Shown here in pieces: positions 2,786-27,603 of a stretch of DNA of 45,512 nucleotides (within the stretch, counting starts at the first letter, position 1; every line of letters begins with the position of its first letter). The position numbers were made by a program, and so were the translations under genes. Under the pieces are notes generated by a model that saw only the letters and a program-made list of their open reading frames with translations, did not search any database and had not been told where the DNA came from. The stretch is from a virus, in IMG/VR virus record IMGVR_UViG_3300030090_005281, positions 1 through 45,512 of that record; one strand, given 5' to 3'.

Positions 2786-2802
2786 TTTCTACCCTTGCCC
2801 TA

Positions 2803-3468
2803 TCACTCGACAAAACCTTCTGGTTCTTCATCAAACTTTTCTTCTGTTTTTTCCACAGACTTTTCCGCAGACTTTTCCGCAATCTTGTCTTGTGCCATCA
2901 CAGCAATAAATTGCTTCATCAGGTCTTTGAGCTCTTGGTCGTCAGAGTTTGCACCTTGAGCCTTAATCGCTTCAATAAGCTCTTTATTGGAGTTACCAAC
3001 ATCGACGTTGACATCAACAACAGGAACGCCATTTTTGTATTTCAGATCCGTTTCATTCTTGATGTCTACGAATTTCACAGCAACCATTATTGATTCTTCA
3101 CCGCCAGCGTTTTTTCTGATGTCGATTTCATAATCAATAACTTTCCAACTTCCGTTTGGTTGACGAAGATTGATTGCTTTGAGTAGACCTTCATAGGTTT
3201 TGCCTATTTGCTCCCGATACAAAGGCTCATCAACATGATTGAGAATACCAGACAGGCGCCACTGAGCAGTTTTTAACTTTGTTCTGTAGCTCGAAAATTC
3301 CTTCCTGGCTTTCTTATCGATAATTCGAGACTCCATCTCATCTTTCAAAATATCGGTGAGTTCATTGGCTTGAACAATAAACATCCGTTTATCTTTTGTG
3401 CTGGCTTTTTCCGAAAAGGCCATAGGAAATCGAGTTGCGTTCTGTTGTGCTTCGTCAATCAAGGACAT
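2803..3468 (-). CDS. Unknown protein of the recombination operon
   Basis: This 221-residue soluble protein has a Lys/Arg-rich helical N-terminal half (residues about 25-75), a central beta-rich segment (WKVIDYEIDIR...IMVAVKFVDIKN) and an acidic, repetitive C-terminal tail (DKIAEKSAEKSVEKTEEKFDEEPEGF). The acidic tail ending in a bulky residue is reminiscent of ssDNA-binding or replication accessory proteins, but no OB-fold signature is recognisable. It has AGGAG upstream of the ATG and sits directly after recT in the same operon, so a recombination accessory role is plausible by context only. Confidence 0.6.
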   Translation of the reverse strand: MSLIDEAQQNATRFPMAFSEKASTKDKRMFIVQANELTDILKDEMESRIIDKKARKEFSSYRTKLKTAQWRLSGILNHVDEPLYREQIGKTYEGLLKAINLRQPNGSWKVIDYEIDIRKNAGGEESIMVAVKFVDIKNETDLKYKNGVPVVDVNVDVGNSNKELIEAIKAQGANSDDQELKDLMKQFIAVMAQDKIAEKSAEKSVEKTEEKFDEEPEGFVE

Positions 3469-3478
3469 TTATATACTC

Positions 3479-4357
3479 CTACGAGGTGAAATCTTCTTCG
3501 GGTTCAGGTAGATCGTTTGCCTTCGCCTTTTCAACCAAATCTTTAACCTTAGATCTCCGTTTTGACTTTGGTTTTGATTCAGCTGGTTCAACATCAATAA
3601 CATTTTCATTGATGTCAGCGTTAACGTCTTCATTAACATCGATTGTTTCAATATCGATGACGTTTCCAAAATCAGACTGAATATCGTGCTCCAGAACAGC
3701 AGTCGTCTTTGGAGTAAGTGGTAGGTACTTACAGATTCGACGGATCACTGTCTTTCGCCACATTTCTTCTGTGTGTTGTGCCCACGGTCCAGATTCTGGA
3801 CTACGTGAGCTCTTGCGAATCTTGTTGATTTGATCCTTTCGCATCACTTCTACTTGGCGTTGACCGTCTTTGAAAAAACATACAGCATACGCAAGAAGCA
3901 AGTCACCAGGGTTTTCATGGCACTTTTTGTGTCGAAGAACCTCACCCCTCTCAAGATCGAACGAGTGTTCGAAATCATCGTTTTCGTAGACAACCTCTGC
4001 TTTGAAGTGAGCAACTTCACCTGATCGCTTTACAAGGTCCATCAGTCCTGTGTACTCAATCCACAGCTCTGCGTTGTAGCCTTTGCTTTTCTTGTCCCAC
4101 ATGGGAACCAAAGAAGCTCGGTGCAAAACTCCACCAGCAACCAGGTCCAACTCGCATGCCTTAGCAAGTGCCATATAAACTGACGCTGGGCTGCACTGTA
4201 CGAGTCTTTCGTTCTTCACGGCCTCAAACATTGCAACACGAATAATTCGATCAACGTCGGTGCCCTGTGGTGCAATCTTAATCAGGCTGCTTTTCTTACC
4301 CTCAAGATAATCGTTCAGTTGGGTAACTTTGTCTCTGGTGCTAAGTGCTGTTGTCAT
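3479..4357 (-). CDS. recT: RecT-family single-strand annealing protein
   Basis: RecT-type recombinases bind ssDNA left by a partner exonuclease and anneal it to complementary strands. The 292-residue product carries the family core: SPASVYMALAKACELDL (about 55-72), ELWIEYTGLMDLVKRSGEV, a KKCHENPGDLLLAYAVC segment, and SPESGPWAQHTEEMWRKTVIRR with the conserved WxxH/EMxxKTxxRR stretch. An acidic/basic tail follows, as in many RecT proteins. The ATG has AGAGG upstream and overlaps the 3' end of the exonuclease gene by 17 bases, the classic exonuclease/annealase pair. Confidence 0.93.
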   Translation of the reverse strand: MTTALSTRDKVTQLNDYLEGKKSSLIKIAPQGTDVDRIIRVAMFEAVKNERLVQCSPASVYMALAKACELDLVAGGVLHRASLVPMWDKKSKGYNAELWIEYTGLMDLVKRSGEVAHFKAEVVYENDDFEHSFDLERGEVLRHKKCHENPGDLLLAYAVCFFKDGQRQVEVMRKDQINKIRKSSRSPESGPWAQHTEEMWRKTVIRRICKYLPLTPKTTAVLEHDIQSDFGNVIDIETIDVNEDVNADINENVIDVEPAESKPKSKRRSKVKDLVEKAKANDLPEPEEDFTS

Positions 4358-5315
4358 GTCGTTCCTCTTTGATTCTTAGTAGTCTGGACCCGGCTTGTTC
4401 AGTAACGTATTTCTCATACATTTCTGGCTCATCTTGACGAAACTTGTTTTTATCAAACACTCGTCTGTTTCTTGATGGTTTCCAAGTTGCAATACCTTCG
4501 ATTCCAGGTTCGTCACCGATTGCAGCTCTAAGTCTATTTTCAAGTTCCTGCTTTTTTCGTTCTATTTCTTTGAACTGTTTTCTGACCTCAACGATTTTTT
4601 CGTACAAGTCTTTTTCAGCAACTGTTGCTGGTCGCAGTGGCTTATCTTGAATTCTTTTGTGTAGTTTGCCCAGCACATTCTTACAAAGAGCAGTCCCATC
4701 AACATCGGGTGGTATTTGCTTTTCGACGTGCTTATCCCACCATTGTTCTGCTACATCCAATATCTGAGCGCCCAACTCTTTGTCTCTTTCGATTCTGTAA
4801 ACACGGAAATCATCCAGGCCAAATAGAGTCGCGATGTCCCAGTATGGAGCATCAAAAATCTCCATGTAGGTTCTCATTTGAATTTCTACATCTAGAGGAA
4901 TGTCAGTTGTTCCTGAATCACCCCAGCCTCTTCGAAATCTACGGGTCTTTGCATCCATACCAAACCGGACACCGTTTTGTTCAACAAGGCGATCAGGTGT
5001 GCCAAAGATGCGTGGCCGAGATGGATGCCATGTCAATCCCTCTTCCCAAAGCTTGCACCCTTCCCCCAGGTGGAGCCCATAAAATTCACATACATATTTT
5101 TCCATTACTCGACCACGCATCAAAACTGCATCGTCAACATCGTCTGATTCAAAAAGATCTGTTTTTTCCGTCCAAAGTTTAAAAACACTGTTTTCAAATG
5201 AACCTACTTTTTCGGCCTCATCATTACATGCAGAAAGCAAAATGCATGCTACGTCGGTGCCTCCGAGTCCTTTTTTGCGCTCGTTAAGCCAAGCTTCTCG
5301 CTCTTGTTGGTTCAT
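4341..5315 (-). CDS. YqaJ-like viral recombinase/exonuclease
   Basis: This is an alkaline 5'-3' exonuclease of the lambda Exo/YqaJ superfamily that supplies ssDNA to RecT. The ATG at 5315 follows AGAGGA and gives 324 residues; an upstream in-frame start would run through the promoter and was not used. Motifs: GGTD at 18-21, RGRVMEK with Glu72, GTPDRL with Asp108, MDAKT with Asp121 and Lys123, and EIQMRTYM with Gln146. These are the PD-(D/E)XK metal-binding and structural residues. It is first in the leftward operon, just downstream of a TTGACA promoter at 5334-5362. Confidence 0.93.
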   Translation of the reverse strand: MNQQEREAWLNERKKGLGGTDVACILLSACNDEAEKVGSFENSVFKLWTEKTDLFESDDVDDAVLMRGRVMEKYVCEFYGLHLGEGCKLWEEGLTWHPSRPRIFGTPDRLVEQNGVRFGMDAKTRRFRRGWGDSGTTDIPLDVEIQMRTYMEIFDAPYWDIATLFGLDDFRVYRIERDKELGAQILDVAEQWWDKHVEKQIPPDVDGTALCKNVLGKLHKRIQDKPLRPATVAEKDLYEKIVEVRKQFKEIERKKQELENRLRAAIGDEPGIEGIATWKPSRNRRVFDKNKFRQDEPEMYEKYVTEQAGSRLLRIKEERHDNST

Positions 5316-9193: not shown

Positions 9194-9463
9194 TCAATCA
9201 CTGTTGTTCAACTTGTACTTGAGTCTGCCTTCTTCTGTGATCCAAAAACTCATGGCAACGCCAGTACGCTCTCTTGCTCGTTGAGCATACTTGACCAAAA
9301 GATTGACCGTGATCGGCTTACGCTTTCCGTTTAGTGCGTGCCAAATGTGTGTGTGTGATACGCCAAGAACTCTACCAGCTTCACGATACGTGTCAGCAAT
9401 TGCATTCACTAAAGCCTGAAGAGCTGGGCTTGTATCGATGACAAAATCTTTCTCTGTGTCCAT
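9194..9463 (-). CDS. Small helix-turn-helix DNA-binding protein
   Basis: This 89-residue protein has REAGRVLGVSHTHIWHALNGK (about residues 27-47), which reads as helix 2, turn and recognition helix of a Cro/C1-like or YdaS-like HTH, followed by ITVNLLVKYAQRARERTG. It is transcribed away from the rightward island starting at 9603, and the 139-base gap between them is a natural operator region. Likely a repressor or activator of that divergent pair. It could also be the first gene of the primase operon. Confidence 0.7.
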   Translation of the reverse strand: MDTEKDFVIDTSPALQALVNAIADTYREAGRVLGVSHTHIWHALNGKRKPITVNLLVKYAQRARERTGVAMSFWITEEGRLKYKLNNSD

Positions 9464-13180: not shown

Positions 13181-14592
13181 AGGATGTTGCTCGTTCCGAT
13201 CGCCTCGACCGTACAACCAACCTGCTCATAAAATCGAGATCTCCTTTGACTTGCGTACAACGATGGTTTGGTAGCATCAACCAAGTCGATCACAATCGGT
13301 GTCTTTTTATTTTCTGCACGTCGCATGATTCGACCAATGCGTTGTTGAATCTTTCCCATGGACTTTGTTGGTGTCGTCAACATCAAGGTGTCCAACCCAG
13401 GTAAATCCAACCCTTCATCAGCAACGGTCGTTGCAAACAATGCACTAATGACCCTATCATCTGCCTCGCGCAACACCTCTTCTCTCTGCTTCTTCGTCAT
13501 CTTACCGACCAACGTAGCAGAGCTCATGCCTCTATTCGCAGTCTCTTCAGCCAAGTCTATGCAGTGTTGGACTCGGTCAGACAGAACCAGTATCTGACGA
13601 CCGTCCGACACCATCTTCTCTACGATTGCAAGTATCTGAGCGTTGCGTTCTTTTGATCCGCACATGTCGTTCACCAACTTTGGCCAGTCCTTTTTCATTT
13701 CTGGCTTCCAGTAAGTACAGTGAAACTTCACAGTGGGCGCAAGAACGTTGCCCTTTTCAATCAAATCAGTCGTATGGATTTGTGCGACCGCATCTCCAAA
13801 GTGCCAGTACATGATGTCGCCCAGTCCATCTGGACGGTCAGGTGTAGCAGTCAGTGCGAGCCTTGCCTGGGCTGGCATACCAAACATCACATGACTGAAT
13901 GTGGATGCTGGTACATGATGCGCTTCGTCAACAATACACAGACCAAACTGACTTCCAAACTCTAAAAGCTCATCGAATCGCATTCGATATAAAGTCTGAA
14001 AGCTGGCCACAACAACATCTCCAGACGCATCTTTTTTTCCGTTGCCATACATGGTCACGCTTACTTCGCCATCACTGACCAGCTGAGCACATATACGTTC
14101 CTTCCATTGGCTCGCTAAGTCTGATGTGTGTACCAAAACGATGGTCTTGACATTGCATCTTACGATTGCCCCAAGACCCATCATTGTTTTTCCAGCTCCG
14201 CATGGCGCTACGATAAGGCCGTTGCGAAAACGTTTGACCCATTCATCAACCGCATCCTGTTGGTAGTCTCTCAACTGTATTCCATCAGCGAACTGGTATG
14301 AAGATAGTTCTGTGTTCGTGCTGGTTCGATTTATCTGTTGAAAGTCGTATTGACTTAAATCTATCCCTCTTGGGATCATCAAACCGCCACCCCACGTATG
14401 CCACAGTGGAATCGTTTGGCATGCGTATATCTGCTCGTCAGGTATGTTGACCCACTTACCGCTTTTGCGTAGAGCTTGTGCCTGATTGTACGCTGGGTTC
14501 ACACAAGTGTATTGTTCCCGTATCTGTGACAGGTAGGGACTGTTCGGAGGAATGAAGTACCCCCCACTCTTTACGCATCTGTTGTCGGTCAT
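13177..14592 (-). CDS. Superfamily 2 DNA helicase (DEAH, XPB/UvsW-like)
   Basis: The start at 14592 gives 471 residues. Motifs: Q-like GIQLRDYQQDAV (104-115), Walker A APCGAGKT (129-136), DEAH (222-225), TAT (248-250), a helicase C domain with LFATTVADEGLDLPGLD, and motif VI QQRIGRIMRR (416-425). The N-terminal 100 residues are a separate recognition region. Such phage helicases remodel forks and recombination intermediates. It heads the operon that continues with the zinc ribbon, methyltransferase and ssb. Confidence 0.92.
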   Translation of the reverse strand: MTDNRCVKSGGYFIPPNSPYLSQIREQYTCVNPAYNQAQALRKSGKWVNIPDEQIYACQTIPLWHTWGGGLMIPRGIDLSQYDFQQINRTSTNTELSSYQFADGIQLRDYQQDAVDEWVKRFRNGLIVAPCGAGKTMMGLGAIVRCNVKTIVLVHTSDLASQWKERICAQLVSDGEVSVTMYGNGKKDASGDVVVASFQTLYRMRFDELLEFGSQFGLCIVDEAHHVPASTFSHVMFGMPAQARLALTATPDRPDGLGDIMYWHFGDAVAQIHTTDLIEKGNVLAPTVKFHCTYWKPEMKKDWPKLVNDMCGSKERNAQILAIVEKMVSDGRQILVLSDRVQHCIDLAEETANRGMSSATLVGKMTKKQREEVLREADDRVISALFATTVADEGLDLPGLDTLMLTTPTKSMGKIQQRIGRIMRRAENKKTPIVIDLVDATKPSLYASQRRSRFYEQVGCTVEAIGTSNIL

Positions 14593-21666: not shown

Positions 21667-21995
21667 CGGACAGAAAATGGTAGTAAGTGTCCCAGTAAGG
21701 GGGGACAGTGTCCTATACTTAGGGACAGCCGAGAATGTAGTTTGAACCTTGGGTATTACTACTGTCCCTACCGTCCCTACCTTATATAGTATGTACCTCC
21801 TTTGGTAGTAGTAGTATTCCTTTAATAGATATAGGTAGTACAACCAAATCCCCTCTATAGGGAAACGAGGGGGGAAGGGGGACAGCAGGGGTTTGAGCTT
21901 AGTATTGTTCACTTTGAACCTAATTTATTGGGTGGCCCTACCTTTTTGATTGGGTAGGGACAGAGAGGGTAAAGCTACCGAGGTAGGGACAGAGA
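21667..21995. repeat. Array of GGGACAG/CTGTCCC repeats
   Basis: About ten copies of a core GGGACAG (or its complement) lie in 330 bases: near 21667, 21688, 21702, 21709, 21721, 21762, 21772, 21878, 21953 and 21982. The last two are the longer GGTAGGGACAGAGA. Some form palindromes, such as GGACAGTGTCC at 21703-21713. The region has no gene otherwise and is AT-rich in the middle (21780-21840). The last two copies overlap the 3' end of the gene at 21975. Confidence 0.7.
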
Positions 21996-23415: not shown

Positions 23416-23498
23416 GTGCGCGTGCGCGTGCGTGCGAGTTTGCTGATAGGGCAGCCAGGTGGCAGCTGGAGGGAGAACACCACTTCACCACCTCCAGC
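23416..23498. repeat. Z-DNA-prone repeat element, copy A
   Basis: Plus strand: alternating G/C/T tract GTGCGCGTGCGCGTGCGTGC (23416-23436), seven bases, the conserved nonamer TGATAGGGC (23444-23452), twelve bases, then an 8-bp hairpin with arms GCTGGAGG (23465-23472) and CCTCCAGC (23491-23498). Two related copies follow at 24351 and 25782. It sits between the leftward genes 23521-23697 and 23224-23361 and holds no gene. Confidence 0.75.
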
Positions 23499-23520
23499 CG
23501 CCTTGAACTGGCCAGTCCAA

Positions 23521-23697
23521 TCAATAGTCGTATCCGTCGATCGGCCCATCCTCATACGAGTCAAGCTCGTCAAGGTGCATCTCTCTGTTGATACGATCTG
23601 TCCTTCTGTCCCAATCTTCTTCTCGTTCGCATGTGCATCGGAGCGCATGGTCGATGTGCTTTGCACAACTGTTGTGGTGTTCTTCTGTCTCCATCAT
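23521..23697 (-). CDS. 58-residue acidic micro-protein with Cys and His
   Basis: ATGATG 23697 to TGA 23521. It contains MMETEEHHNSCAKHIDHALR, then CTCEREEDWDRR and a tail of Asp, Glu and Tyr ending GYDY. His/Cys spacing (HHNSCxKH...CTC) could bind zinc. Its start lies in a conserved AGGTGAATGATG junction with the upstream gene. No known family. Confidence 0.6.
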   Translation of the reverse strand: MMETEEHHNSCAKHIDHALRCTCEREEDWDRRTDRINREMHLDELDSYEDGPIDGYDY

Positions 23698-24257
23698 TCA
23701 CCTCTCTTGAAAATCAGGTGTGCGTTGTTGTTGAGGAATCCCTCATCGAATAAACGATGCACATCATTCACATCGAAGAATAGATCTTCAATGCTGTTCA
23801 TTGACATCGCCAATATGCCTGGTCCAAATCGTGGCAGTCCTTCTTCTGGTTCATGTGTCGAACAGTCAGCATCGTTGATTCGATTGGGATGAACGATGTC
23901 TTTGTGGATAGCGAATGGCCCACATTCCAATAGGTTTTCTTCATTGGTGAATACAAGCCAATCGTGTATGAACTTCTGGTTGACTGCGTTCTCAAAGTCT
24001 TTGCGCTTTTGGACATCGAACCCCGACTCGCGCAGGAACATGACAGCCTCTTCTTCATTGACCGCGTGGGAGTCGATCGACATCGCGTGTTCTTTGTCCT
24101 CTGGTGATGTCGCAGGAACAAAGCAGTCAGGGCATAAGTAGTCCTCGCCGTATCCGCAGTACTCATCGGTTCGAACCCATACGCCGCATGAATCGCATTG
24201 GTAGGAGACATGGACTGCTCCGCTGTCGTCTATGTATATTTGTGTAGGTTTACTCAT
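23694..24257 (-). CDS. Unknown protein with N-terminal zinc finger
   Basis: This 187-residue product has YQCDSCGVWVRTDEYCGYGEDYLCPDC (about 19-45), a four-Cys zinc finger, then an acidic mixed region with VFTNEENLLECGPFAIHKD and DVNDVHRLFDEGFLNNNAHLIF. It ends KRGE in the junction. The start lies immediately after a duplicated leader (24255-24276). Family unknown. Confidence 0.6.
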   Translation of the reverse strand: MSKPTQIYIDDSGAVHVSYQCDSCGVWVRTDEYCGYGEDYLCPDCFVPATSPEDKEHAMSIDSHAVNEEEAVMFLRESGFDVQKRKDFENAVNQKFIHDWLVFTNEENLLECGPFAIHKDIVHPNRINDADCSTHEPEEGLPRFGPGILAMSMNSIEDLFFDVNDVHRLFDEGFLNNNAHLIFKRGE

Positions 24258-24276
24258 GGTGTTCTCCTTGTGGTGT
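24255..24276 (-). repeat. Duplicated translation leader, copy 1
   Basis: These 22 bases, which include the start codon of the gene at 24257, are identical to 26385-26406. On the minus strand the core is ACACCACAAGGAGAACACC followed directly by ATG. The AGGAG is the ribosome-binding site and the flanking ACACC blocks are part of the repeat. Confidence 0.7.
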
Positions 24277-24312
24277 CTATATCCAGTAACCTATGTTTAC
24301 TTGTGTGCCAAC

Positions 24313-24318
24313 ATTATA
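24313..24318 (-). promoter_or_regulatory. Putative -10 element TATAAT
   Basis: A perfect minus-strand TATAAT (24318-24313) lies 56 bases upstream of the start at 24257 and right after repeat element B. No good -35 is visible at 16-18 bases. It likely drives the zinc-finger protein and the genes to its left. Confidence 0.4.
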
Positions 24319-24350
24319 TTGAAAATACTTTCTTGATGTATGTCAGCTGA

Positions 24351-24430
24351 TGTGTGCGCGTGCGCGTGCGTGCCCGTCGTTGATAGGGCAGGGTTGCCCC
24401 CCAGCCTCAAGGGCATGGGGGAGCTTTTTT
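24351..24430. repeat. Z-DNA-prone repeat element, copy B
   Basis: Tract TGTGTGCGCGTGCGCGTGCG (from 24351, running to 24373), the nonamer TGATAGGGC (24381-24389), then a GC hairpin (24396-24403 with 24416-24424) followed on the plus strand by TTTTTT (24425-24430). The hairpin plus T-run has the form of a rightward intrinsic terminator although all nearby genes run left. Confidence 0.7.
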
Positions 24431-24492
24431 GTAGCGGTAGCATCCGCTCTCCAGGGTTTCGATCTCTTCTCTTTCCCAGTAGTTCCAAAAAA

Positions 24493-24660
24493 TCATGTTA
24501 CCTCCATGACTGATTTGAGCCAGTCCTGATGCATTTCGTCATGAACCAGATCCCACAAGTCATCGACTACTTCTTGGATGTCCTCGGGATCGCCTTTTTC
24601 GATTAGATCGTCGATCGTTTCGATCTTGTCCAATATGCTGGATAGTATCGCTTCCATCAT
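24493..24660 (-). CDS. Small acidic helical protein
   Basis: ATGATG 24660, overlapping the upstream stop, gives 55 residues: MMEAILSSILDKIETIDDLIEKGDPEDIQEVVDDLWDLVHDEMHQDWLK. It is strongly acidic and helical with no cysteine. An upstream in-frame start would run into the neighbouring gene. Followed by repeat element B about 60 bases further on. No family recognised. Confidence 0.6.
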   Translation of the reverse strand: MMEAILSSILDKIETIDDLIEKGDPEDIQEVVDDLWDLVHDEMHQDWLKSVMEVT

Positions 24661-24914
24661 TCCCCTCCGCAGTCGTCGCAATAGTCAACGTCTGGATGTT
24701 GTTCGTCGGGCTCACAGCCTGCGCATGTGTATGTCTTATTGTCATCGATCATGTCGATGTCTCTTAGCTCTTGAACCACAGAATCGAATAGACCGGGCTC
24801 GCGTTTGTATCGGGTTCGCATCTCATATATGAGGGCATCGTTCATCTCTTCGAGTGTCATAGACTCAACACACATTCGAGCGATACGTCGTCTGTTTGCT
24901 GCGTTGTTTTCCAT
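24657..24914 (-). CDS. Small protein with C-terminal zinc finger, paralogue of the protein at 19428
   Basis: This 85-residue product begins MENNAANRRRIARMCVESMT, like the 59-residue protein at 19428-19607. It ends with a Cys cluster (YTCAGCEPDEQHPDVDYCDDCGGE). The final GGE is encoded by a variant junction. The leader AGGAGAACACCACA precedes its ATG and is of the same type as other monocistronic leaders here. Function unknown. Confidence 0.65.
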   Translation of the reverse strand: MENNAANRRRIARMCVESMTLEEMNDALIYEMRTRYKREPGLFDSVVQELRDIDMIDDNKTYTCAGCEPDEQHPDVDYCDDCGGE

Positions 24915-24937
24915 TGTGGTGTTCTCCTGGTTTGGGT

Positions 24938-25678
24938 TTAGTGTTTGAGGAATACGACGCCAGGGACAGCCCCATGGTGATCGTTTTGTGCGTCACATAG
25001 TCCGCAACTGTTACAGTCGACGGCTTTGTGTTGGGCAGGGCAGACGATCAGCCGGTGACCGTTTGGTGTGGTGAACGTTTCACCGCTCCACTCTTCGAGA
25101 TCTTTCAAGGTGCTGCGCTTCGATCCTGGTACCTTGAGATCGTCCGATGTCAACGCAACGCGCCATCCCTCATCAATGCGATCGTCGGCCTCTTCGAGCG
25201 AGTGAACCGACGCCATAGCAAGGCCTTGCAAGTGTGCGCCCTTGTCCGCTGCGAAATGTGTATACAGCAACATCCCACGGAATCCGGCCTCGCGTACATC
25301 GTTTGCCCATCCCTCGACAGTCTCCCGATCGAATATCCACGGATCGCCACCTACAGCCCCACGGACATATCGGGCCATTCTGCGGGAGTTTGATATTGCT
25401 GTCTTGAGGCTGTAACGGTGTGGTCGTCGCATGGCTTCCTTTGCCCTATGTACTCCCAGCGAGTGAACCTCTGCCATGTCCTTTGCATGTGCTCGCTGCA
25501 TGGATGCCTGTGCCCTACGTGCGCCCAGCCAGTGATAGCATCCGTCTTGGCGTAGTGGGCAACCTTCACAGGATCGCTCTGTCTCTGCTTTATCGACGCC
25601 AACGTATCCCTGCGGAATGTCGCCGGTCTTGTCGTTGTTCGATCGTCCAACCCATAGCATTGTTGGTTTCTTGTTCAT
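24938..25678 (-). CDS. Conserved phage protein with Cys clusters at both ends, unknown
   Basis: This 246-residue product has CEGCPLRQDGCYHW near residues 36-49 and CPAQHKAVDCNSCGLCDA near 215-232, spaced like metal or Fe-S cluster ligands. Between them are RMARYVRGAVGGDPWIF, EAGFRGMLLYTHFAADKG and a WRVALTSDDLKVPGS strand region. It ends VPGVVFLKH. I have seen proteins of this type in phage genomes but cannot name a function. The leader repeats AGAGAACACC twice (25679-25712). Confidence 0.65.
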   Translation of the reverse strand: MNKKPTMLWVGRSNNDKTGDIPQGYVGVDKAETERSCEGCPLRQDGCYHWLGARRAQASMQRAHAKDMAEVHSLGVHRAKEAMRRPHRYSLKTAISNSRRMARYVRGAVGGDPWIFDRETVEGWANDVREAGFRGMLLYTHFAADKGAHLQGLAMASVHSLEEADDRIDEGWRVALTSDDLKVPGSKRSTLKDLEEWSGETFTTPNGHRLIVCPAQHKAVDCNSCGLCDAQNDHHGAVPGVVFLKH

Positions 25679-25781
25679 GTGGTGTTCTCTCTGTGGTGCG
25701 GTGTTCTCTTTTAGCCTAACATGAAAAAATCGTTTTTGTGCGGTTTTTTTTTCGATTATTTTTTGCGGGTTATTTCCCGTC

Positions 25782-25857
25782 TGCGCGTGCGCGTGCGCGT
25801 GCGCCCCCGTCTGTGATAGGGCCGCAGGTAGCCGCCACCCTTACGGGTGACGACTGC
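25782..25857. repeat. Z-DNA-prone repeat element, copy C
   Basis: Tract TGCGCGTGCGCGTGCGCGTG (from 25782 to about 25804), nine bases, nonamer TGATAGGGC (25814-25822), then an outer GCAG/CTGC pair (25824-25827 with 25854-25857) around an inner hairpin CACCC-TTAC-GGGTG (25836-25849). The 29-codon gene on the minus strand ends with TAA inside the inner loop. The 25741-25781 side is very A/T-rich. Confidence 0.7.
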
Positions 25858-25930
25858 AGCTGAGTTCAACGATTGCCATAGAGATCACAATTGCGAGCAT
25901 GATGAAGTGAATCAGAAACGGGTCAATCAT
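25841..25930 (-). CDS. 29-residue hydrophobic peptide
   Basis: ATG 25930 overlaps the stop of the upstream gene (ATGA) and TAA lies at 25843-25841 within the loop of element C. The peptide MIDPFLIHFIMLAIVISMAI, then VELSCSRHP, is one membrane span with a short tail. Coupling to the upstream gene and the hydrophobic core make it a plausible small membrane peptide. At this length it could be chance. Confidence 0.45.
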   Translation of the reverse strand: MIDPFLIHFIMLAIVISMAIVELSCSRHP

Positions 25931-27399: not shown

Positions 27400-27456
27400 G
27401 GCAACATATGAAGAAAAACGACATTTTTCTGGTTTTTTTAGTGCAACCACCCATCC

Positions 27457-27571
27457 AGCTGAAAATGTACCCGTCAGTAGATAAAACCCCACAAATATAC
27501 CCTTCAGTAGATTTCAGCTGAAAATGTACCCATGAGTAGATTTATCCAAATAATCCGACCCTTCAGTAGAT
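27457..27571. repeat. Four phased 14-bp direct repeats (iteron-like)
   Basis: Consensus ACCCNTCAGTAGAT, copies at 27469-27482, 27499-27512, 27528-27541 (ACCCATGAGTAGAT) and 27558-27571. Start-to-start distances are 30, 29 and 30 bases, about three helical turns, so bound protein would lie on one DNA face. Copies 1 and 3 are preceded by the identical CAGCTGAAAATGT (27457, 27515). The nonamer GCCCTATCA of the Z-DNA-prone elements follows at 27575-27583. The region lies between divergent units. Confidence 0.85.
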
Positions 27572-27603
27572 TTCGCCCTATCATGAGATTCCCGTCTGAG
27601 GTG

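Follow-up and report, generated by a model that had tools for sequence, protein, structure and literature searches.

Three copies of an element composed of an alternating GY tract, the nonamer TGATAGGGC and a hairpin lie in the window, by which we mean the whole 45,512-nt stretch analysed here (IMG/VR virus record IMGVR_UViG_3300030090_005281). All three had been noted in a previous sequence-only reading of this DNA, and all three were located (Table 1). The tract-to-nonamer gaps of copies 1, 2 and 3 are 8, 7 and 9 nt; the earlier values for copies 2 and 3 and the start of copy 1 stand, whereas the gap of copy 1 had been given as 7 nt and the two other starts were each one base out. Five nonamers are present in the window where 0.13 would be expected, and 0 of 100 shuffles reached five; a 16-nt RC alternation is found only at the three copies (0.00 expected). 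The tracts are long alternating purine-pyrimidine runs rich in GC/GT, the sequence type predicted to form Z-DNA.

Table 1. Coordinates and strands of the element copies, isolated nonamers and associated features in the window
Feature	Position	Strand	Remarks
Copy 1 tract, alternating GY, 20 nt	23416..23435	+	RC when read on the coding strand
Copy 1 nonamer TGATAGGGC	23444..23452	+	GCCCTATCA on the leftward coding strand
Copy 1 hairpin	23461..23502	-	After 58-aa gene 23521-23697; z = -3.7 against shuffles
Copy 2 tract, alternating GY, 22 nt	24352..24373	+	
Copy 2 nonamer	24381..24389	+	
Copy 2 hairpin	24396..24424	.	z = -3.6 against shuffles
Possible -10 box TATAAT of leftward unit 24257-23694	24313..24318	-	Downstream of copy 2 on the coding strand
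Copy 3 tract, alternating GY, 22 nt	25783..25804	+	
Copy 3 nonamer	25814..25822	+	
Copy 3 hairpin, CGTCACCC-GTAA-GGGTGGCG	25824..25861	-	Hairpin family common to L005 and L043; z = -2.6
Nonamer without tract, recT operon end	2797..2805	-	TGA is the stop codon of 221-aa gene 2803-3468, next to recT
Nonamer without tract, divergent switch	27575..27583	-	Upstream of rightward genes
89-aa HTH protein, candidate nonamer reader	9194..9463	-	Present in the carriers examined

The hairpins had been described as unrelated in sequence, which does not apply to all of them: copy 3, hairpin included, resembles two L005 copies at about 84% over 68 nt. On the + strand, the loop of the copy 1 hairpin reads GAGAACACCAC and is identical to the leader preceding many leftward start codons; similar hairpins with this loop are present in L005, L012, L003 and L148. 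The copy 2 hairpin is flanked by a T run (24425-24430) on the + strand, that is, on the non-coding side. A promoter scan favoured a box different from the TATAAT listed in Table 1, for which the -35 is weak. Searched with Rfam 15 at gathering score, the window yielded no match to the element, its sole match being a tRNA.

Occurrence and anatomy of the element across carrier viruses

We scanned IMG/VR for the pattern and read candidate contigs in full or in part. This search of relatives, proposed in the sequence-only reading, returned 38 distinct tract sites (about 40 occurrences) in 12 viral contigs (the window, G001-G004, G006-G011 and G025), each bearing one to seven copies of the unit (seven in G003) and roughly 2-10 nonamers. 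All 38 sites present the same order on the coding strand: the end or stop codon of a gene, a hairpin, 0-10 nt, GCCCTATCA, 4-14 nt, an RC tract, a sigma70-type promoter and the next gene, with the start codon of many copies lying some 90-175 nt past the nonamer. The hairpin, previously taken as the third and downstream part of the element, is thus its first.

Analysis of hairpin structure and covariation, also suggested beforehand, revealed strong hairpins (z < -2) in 27 of 37 copies, UUCG or GNRA tetraloops in most copies folded, and one compensatory change, from U-A to C-G, between L031 and L036. T/U runs follow the hairpin in several L031 and L036 copies, and are absent from the coding strand of the window copies. 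As in an intrinsic terminator, a stable hairpin stands directly after the gene; with nonamer, tract and promoter all following it on the coding strand, the hairpin is most likely the terminator of the preceding leftward unit. Promoters of the TTGAC(N)-17-TATATT type score on average 9.6 on the coding strand, compared with 8.5 for the opposite strand and 8.3 for shuffled sequence, with a strong signal in G003, G006, G007 and G010 and a weak one at the window's own copies. The distance from nonamer to -35 ranges from 27 to 127 nt; the nonamer therefore goes with the hairpin rather than the promoter, and a fixed promoter-activator spacing was rejected on the same grounds. Pairing of GCCC...GGG across the linker was likewise discarded: of 37 linkers, 27 contain GGG where 10.3 would be expected, yet it is not universal.

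In L031 and L036, single-gene units are each preceded by a copy, and some copies stand ahead of long gene-less stretches. At L031 ~4200-4600, L036 3060-3470, L018 ~13460-13870 and L003 5400-6600, a copy is followed by a gene-less stretch with a promoter and a common GTAGACACAC motif, and such stretches possibly encode a noncoding RNA.

The nonamer itself is strictly conserved. When the search was started from tracts, 34 of 44 distinct (GY)6+ tracts led to the exact nonamer and none to a word with one or two mismatches, although selection was not wholly removed from this test because most of the contigs had themselves been found by the nonamer. Palindromic tracts read on their complementary strand make up five of the remaining ten; three more are additional tracts next to a copy, one is truncated where its contig ends, and the last is unrelated. 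Over 399 kb we counted 64 exact nonamers, against two instances of the reversed word and a mean of 1.6 per one-mismatch variant. On both sides of the nonamer, conservation drops from its maximum to about 0.3 bits; only these edges of the profile are informative, as the nonamer was the search key.

Clustering of called genes (excluding G025, and with G008 checked for RecT and the HTH protein only) shows that the carriers have in common RecT, a YqaJ-type nuclease, a VapE-like helicase, a primase, an SSB and an HTH protein, and they make up an uncultivated group of phage-like dsDNA viruses with a common replication/recombination module, in which the element separates small gene units within one region of the genome. 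The window is a fragment, and relatives with its terminase reach 75 kb. A terminase search gave 44 relatives, many of them fragments and several 70-75 kb in length; none contained tract plus nonamer, and four contained single nonamers, none next to a tract. RecT identity to the window's protein is at least 72% in the carriers tested and 28-62% in matching relatives without the element; in the tested relatives that lack it, RecT and HTH proteins are more distant or none was found. Given this absence from terminase relatives with distant RecT and HTH proteins, a protein partner of the nonamer is most likely encoded in the replication/early module. In diverged viruses essentially every tract is followed by the exact nonamer, and terminase-only relatives lack tract plus nonamer; both observations bear out the proposal that the arrangement is a functional unit and not sequence drift. 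One relative without the nonamer, G056 (L207-L210, 38536-42319), has intergenic clusters of AAGCGCTACCCGGACCG, and related viruses may have words of their own, of which this would be an example.

The element had no match in the cultured phages searched, among which neither DNA nor the 246-aa and 302-aa proteins detected a close relative; only distant matches came from terminase, the VapE-like helicase and RecT. Plasmids matched only in pieces of 21-26 nt. Nineteen matches in 85,000 bacterial and archaeal species genomes were judged to be due to chance: they occur one per locus, are mostly coding-like and, by eye, never show the terminator-nonamer-tract-promoter layout. The same judgement was reached for IMG/VR matches L001, L002, L004, L013, L019 and L021. 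A literature search for the nonamer word returned only unrelated papers among the matches listed.

Nonamers outside tract sites and candidate regulatory partners

The two additional nonamers reported at 2797 and 27575 both exist, on the other strand. Divergent switches in the window, L031 (9237) and L038 (1559, 1681) carry one or two nonamers without tract at an equivalent place. In the window, the nonamer at 27575 is adjoined by two 59-bp direct repeats (27456-27573), 80% alike and with CTTCAGTAGATT units. The nonamer at 2797 is no stray match, its place being conserved in many relatives; the genes that follow it differ, and some are convergent. Orientation relative to transcription is constant at tract sites and the divergent switch, and reversed in the 2797 class.

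Nonamers also occur inside genes, namely in the helicase P-loop and in a 106-aa family. In six contigs the P-loop nonamer retains the codons ATG ATA GGG while neighbouring synonymous positions vary, a pattern that is no more than suggestive. At L043 11000, tract and nonamer lie inside a 120-aa ORF, with the tract encoding an Arg-Ala repeat.

The 89-aa HTH protein yields an AlphaFold model with pLDDT 88.6, which Foldseek relates to Xre-like proteins (best E 2.8e-3), and the recognition-helix region of its family is conserved across carriers. That this protein, a candidate reader, binds the nonamer is a guess. The sequence GTTAAC occurs in or near promoters at L005 6744 and 7392, L043 5172 and 5871, and window 9495, including upstream of the HTH gene, and is possibly a separate operator. 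Intergenic inverted repeats TGTCCCTACC ... GGTAGGGACA surround an AT-rich TATATA core at window 21763-21991, L003 5516-5724 and L031 3638-3750, and are present also in L018, L020, L036, L043 and L045; they are candidates for a replication origin or a bidirectional operator.

A proposed transcription-unit boundary and competing explanations

Building on the observed arrangement and orientation of the element, its strict conservation, structured hairpins and promoters, and its restriction to viruses with the module, we tentatively favour, at just under even confidence, its interpretation as a transcription-unit boundary at which a viral protein would read the nonamer while terminator and supercoil-absorbing tract insulate neighbouring units. 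Under this model the leftward transcript would end at the strong hairpin, directly past which GCCCTATCA would be a nine-base site, strict in sequence, to which a protein from the viral replication/early module probably binds; this protein would stop or control any RNA polymerase that got past the hairpin. The Z-prone tract, adopting Z-DNA, would absorb the supercoiling difference between units, and the sigma70-type promoter past it would start the next small unit, so that each small accessory gene could be independently expressed. The nonamer alone may play the same role at the 27575 divergent switch and the 2797 recT operon end, and a polar rule whereby polymerase meeting GCCCTATCA first is blocked would fit tract, divergent and operon-end sites alike. 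A boundary would account for where the element lies, for its association with terminators and for the variability of the promoter distance, as well as for its presence at tandem, divergent and operon-end junctions. Against it stand the coding-sequence nonamers and the in-ORF copy in L043, both left unexplained, the lack of a coding-strand T run in the window copies (with that of copy 2 on the opposite strand), the weak promoter case at these copies, and the reversal of the 2797 nonamer relative to its operon. Of the functions offered by the sequence-only reading, insulator or boundary is the best, whereas a mobile or recombination signal gained no direct support.

We consider unlikely an operator or stoperator function in which a lambda-repressor-like protein, for which the 89-aa HTH protein is a candidate, would bind nonamers and silence early units, for instance in a dormant state, on the pattern of Cluster A mycobacteriophages. 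The HTH family of the carriers, with its conserved recognition-helix region and Xre-like model, is consistent with this, as is an asymmetric dispersed site that, where a tract is present, always keeps one orientation towards the gene downstream. Nonamer invariance, however, exceeds expectation for operators, its copies are few for each contig, GTTAAC, which several promoters contain and which also lies ahead of the HTH gene, would be an equally good operator for the HTH protein, and the window proteins scanned included neither an integrase nor a lysogeny gene. Single-gene cassettes, the recurrence of element and hairpin in different gene contexts, and the termination of several contigs at or near a nonamer would also be expected of a recombination point, RecT-mediated or site-specific, for swapping single accessory genes. 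This we find improbable: cassette order is largely collinear among L031, L036 and L020, pairwise BLAST shows similarity continuing through the nonamer with no breakpoints there, no integrase was seen, and the contig ends may reflect coverage gaps at GC hairpins.

A role as a polar nine-base site in priming, fork arrest or a Chi-like process, recognised by the replication/recombination module, would agree with nonamer strictness, with co-occurrence of element and module, and with the P-loop nonamers of six contigs amid differing synonymous flanks; it is nonetheless rather improbable, since the sites lie mainly at transcription-unit boundaries beside terminators and consistent polarity from one origin is not seen. 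Very improbable, finally, is that TGATAGGGC begins a rightward promoter producing short hairpin RNAs antisense to leftward genes. T7-type promoters have an ATAGGG start, which TGATAGGGC resembles, and 2797-class nonamers directly precede genes, but at tract sites the word runs opposite to the genes, some sites of the 2797 class have a convergent gene in front of them, the proteins scanned included no single-subunit RNA polymerase, and conservation stops sharply at nine bases instead of extending over a promoter of some 23 bp.

Returning to the transcription-unit boundary, its strongest form, a strictly sequence-specific viral insulator in which one protein, an invariant nine-base word and a Z-DNA-prone supercoil sink isolate single-gene units, strikes us as somewhat unlikely. 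The element is a defined cis-element whose sequence rules are strict and whose candidate partner genes are restricted, and it provides a handle on how a phage separates densely packed small units; it bears on a possible selected role of Z-forming DNA between bacterial-type operons and could serve as a marker of this virus group in metagenomes.

Among known systems, the closest analogue in behaviour would be the stoperators of Cluster A mycobacteriophages, to which we do not assign the element. These are short, asymmetric, lineage-specific intergenic or promoter sites, oriented to transcription and proposed to stop both initiation and elongation (PMC9283540). The nonamer resembles them as a short asymmetric site at many intergenic places, but stoperators span 13 bp at more than 20 sites, the nonamer 9 bp at about 2-10 sites in each contig, and tract and hairpin, both present in the viral element, are not described as part of the stoperator site (PMC9283540). 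Stoperators are bound by a 183-residue two-domain repressor (PMC9283540), of which no counterpart was identified here. The element shares with intrinsic terminators a strong UUCG- or GNRA-loop hairpin after the stop codon and, in L031-type copies, a T run; it differs in that nonamer and tract always come next and in the window copies lacking that run on the coding strand. DNA uptake (USS) sequences place an invariant word of 9-12 bases beside bacterial terminators, whereas the viral nonamer is low in copy, of single orientation per class and accompanied by a tract. REP/BIME are intergenic elements with a hairpin and a proposed supercoil function; in the viral element it is the hairpin that varies and the nine-base word that is constant. 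The start-associated sequence of Cluster K mycobacteriophages is a phage-group-specific repeat near gene starts, from which the nonamer is distinguished by its different sequence and by its location next to terminators, 27-127 nt upstream of the -35.
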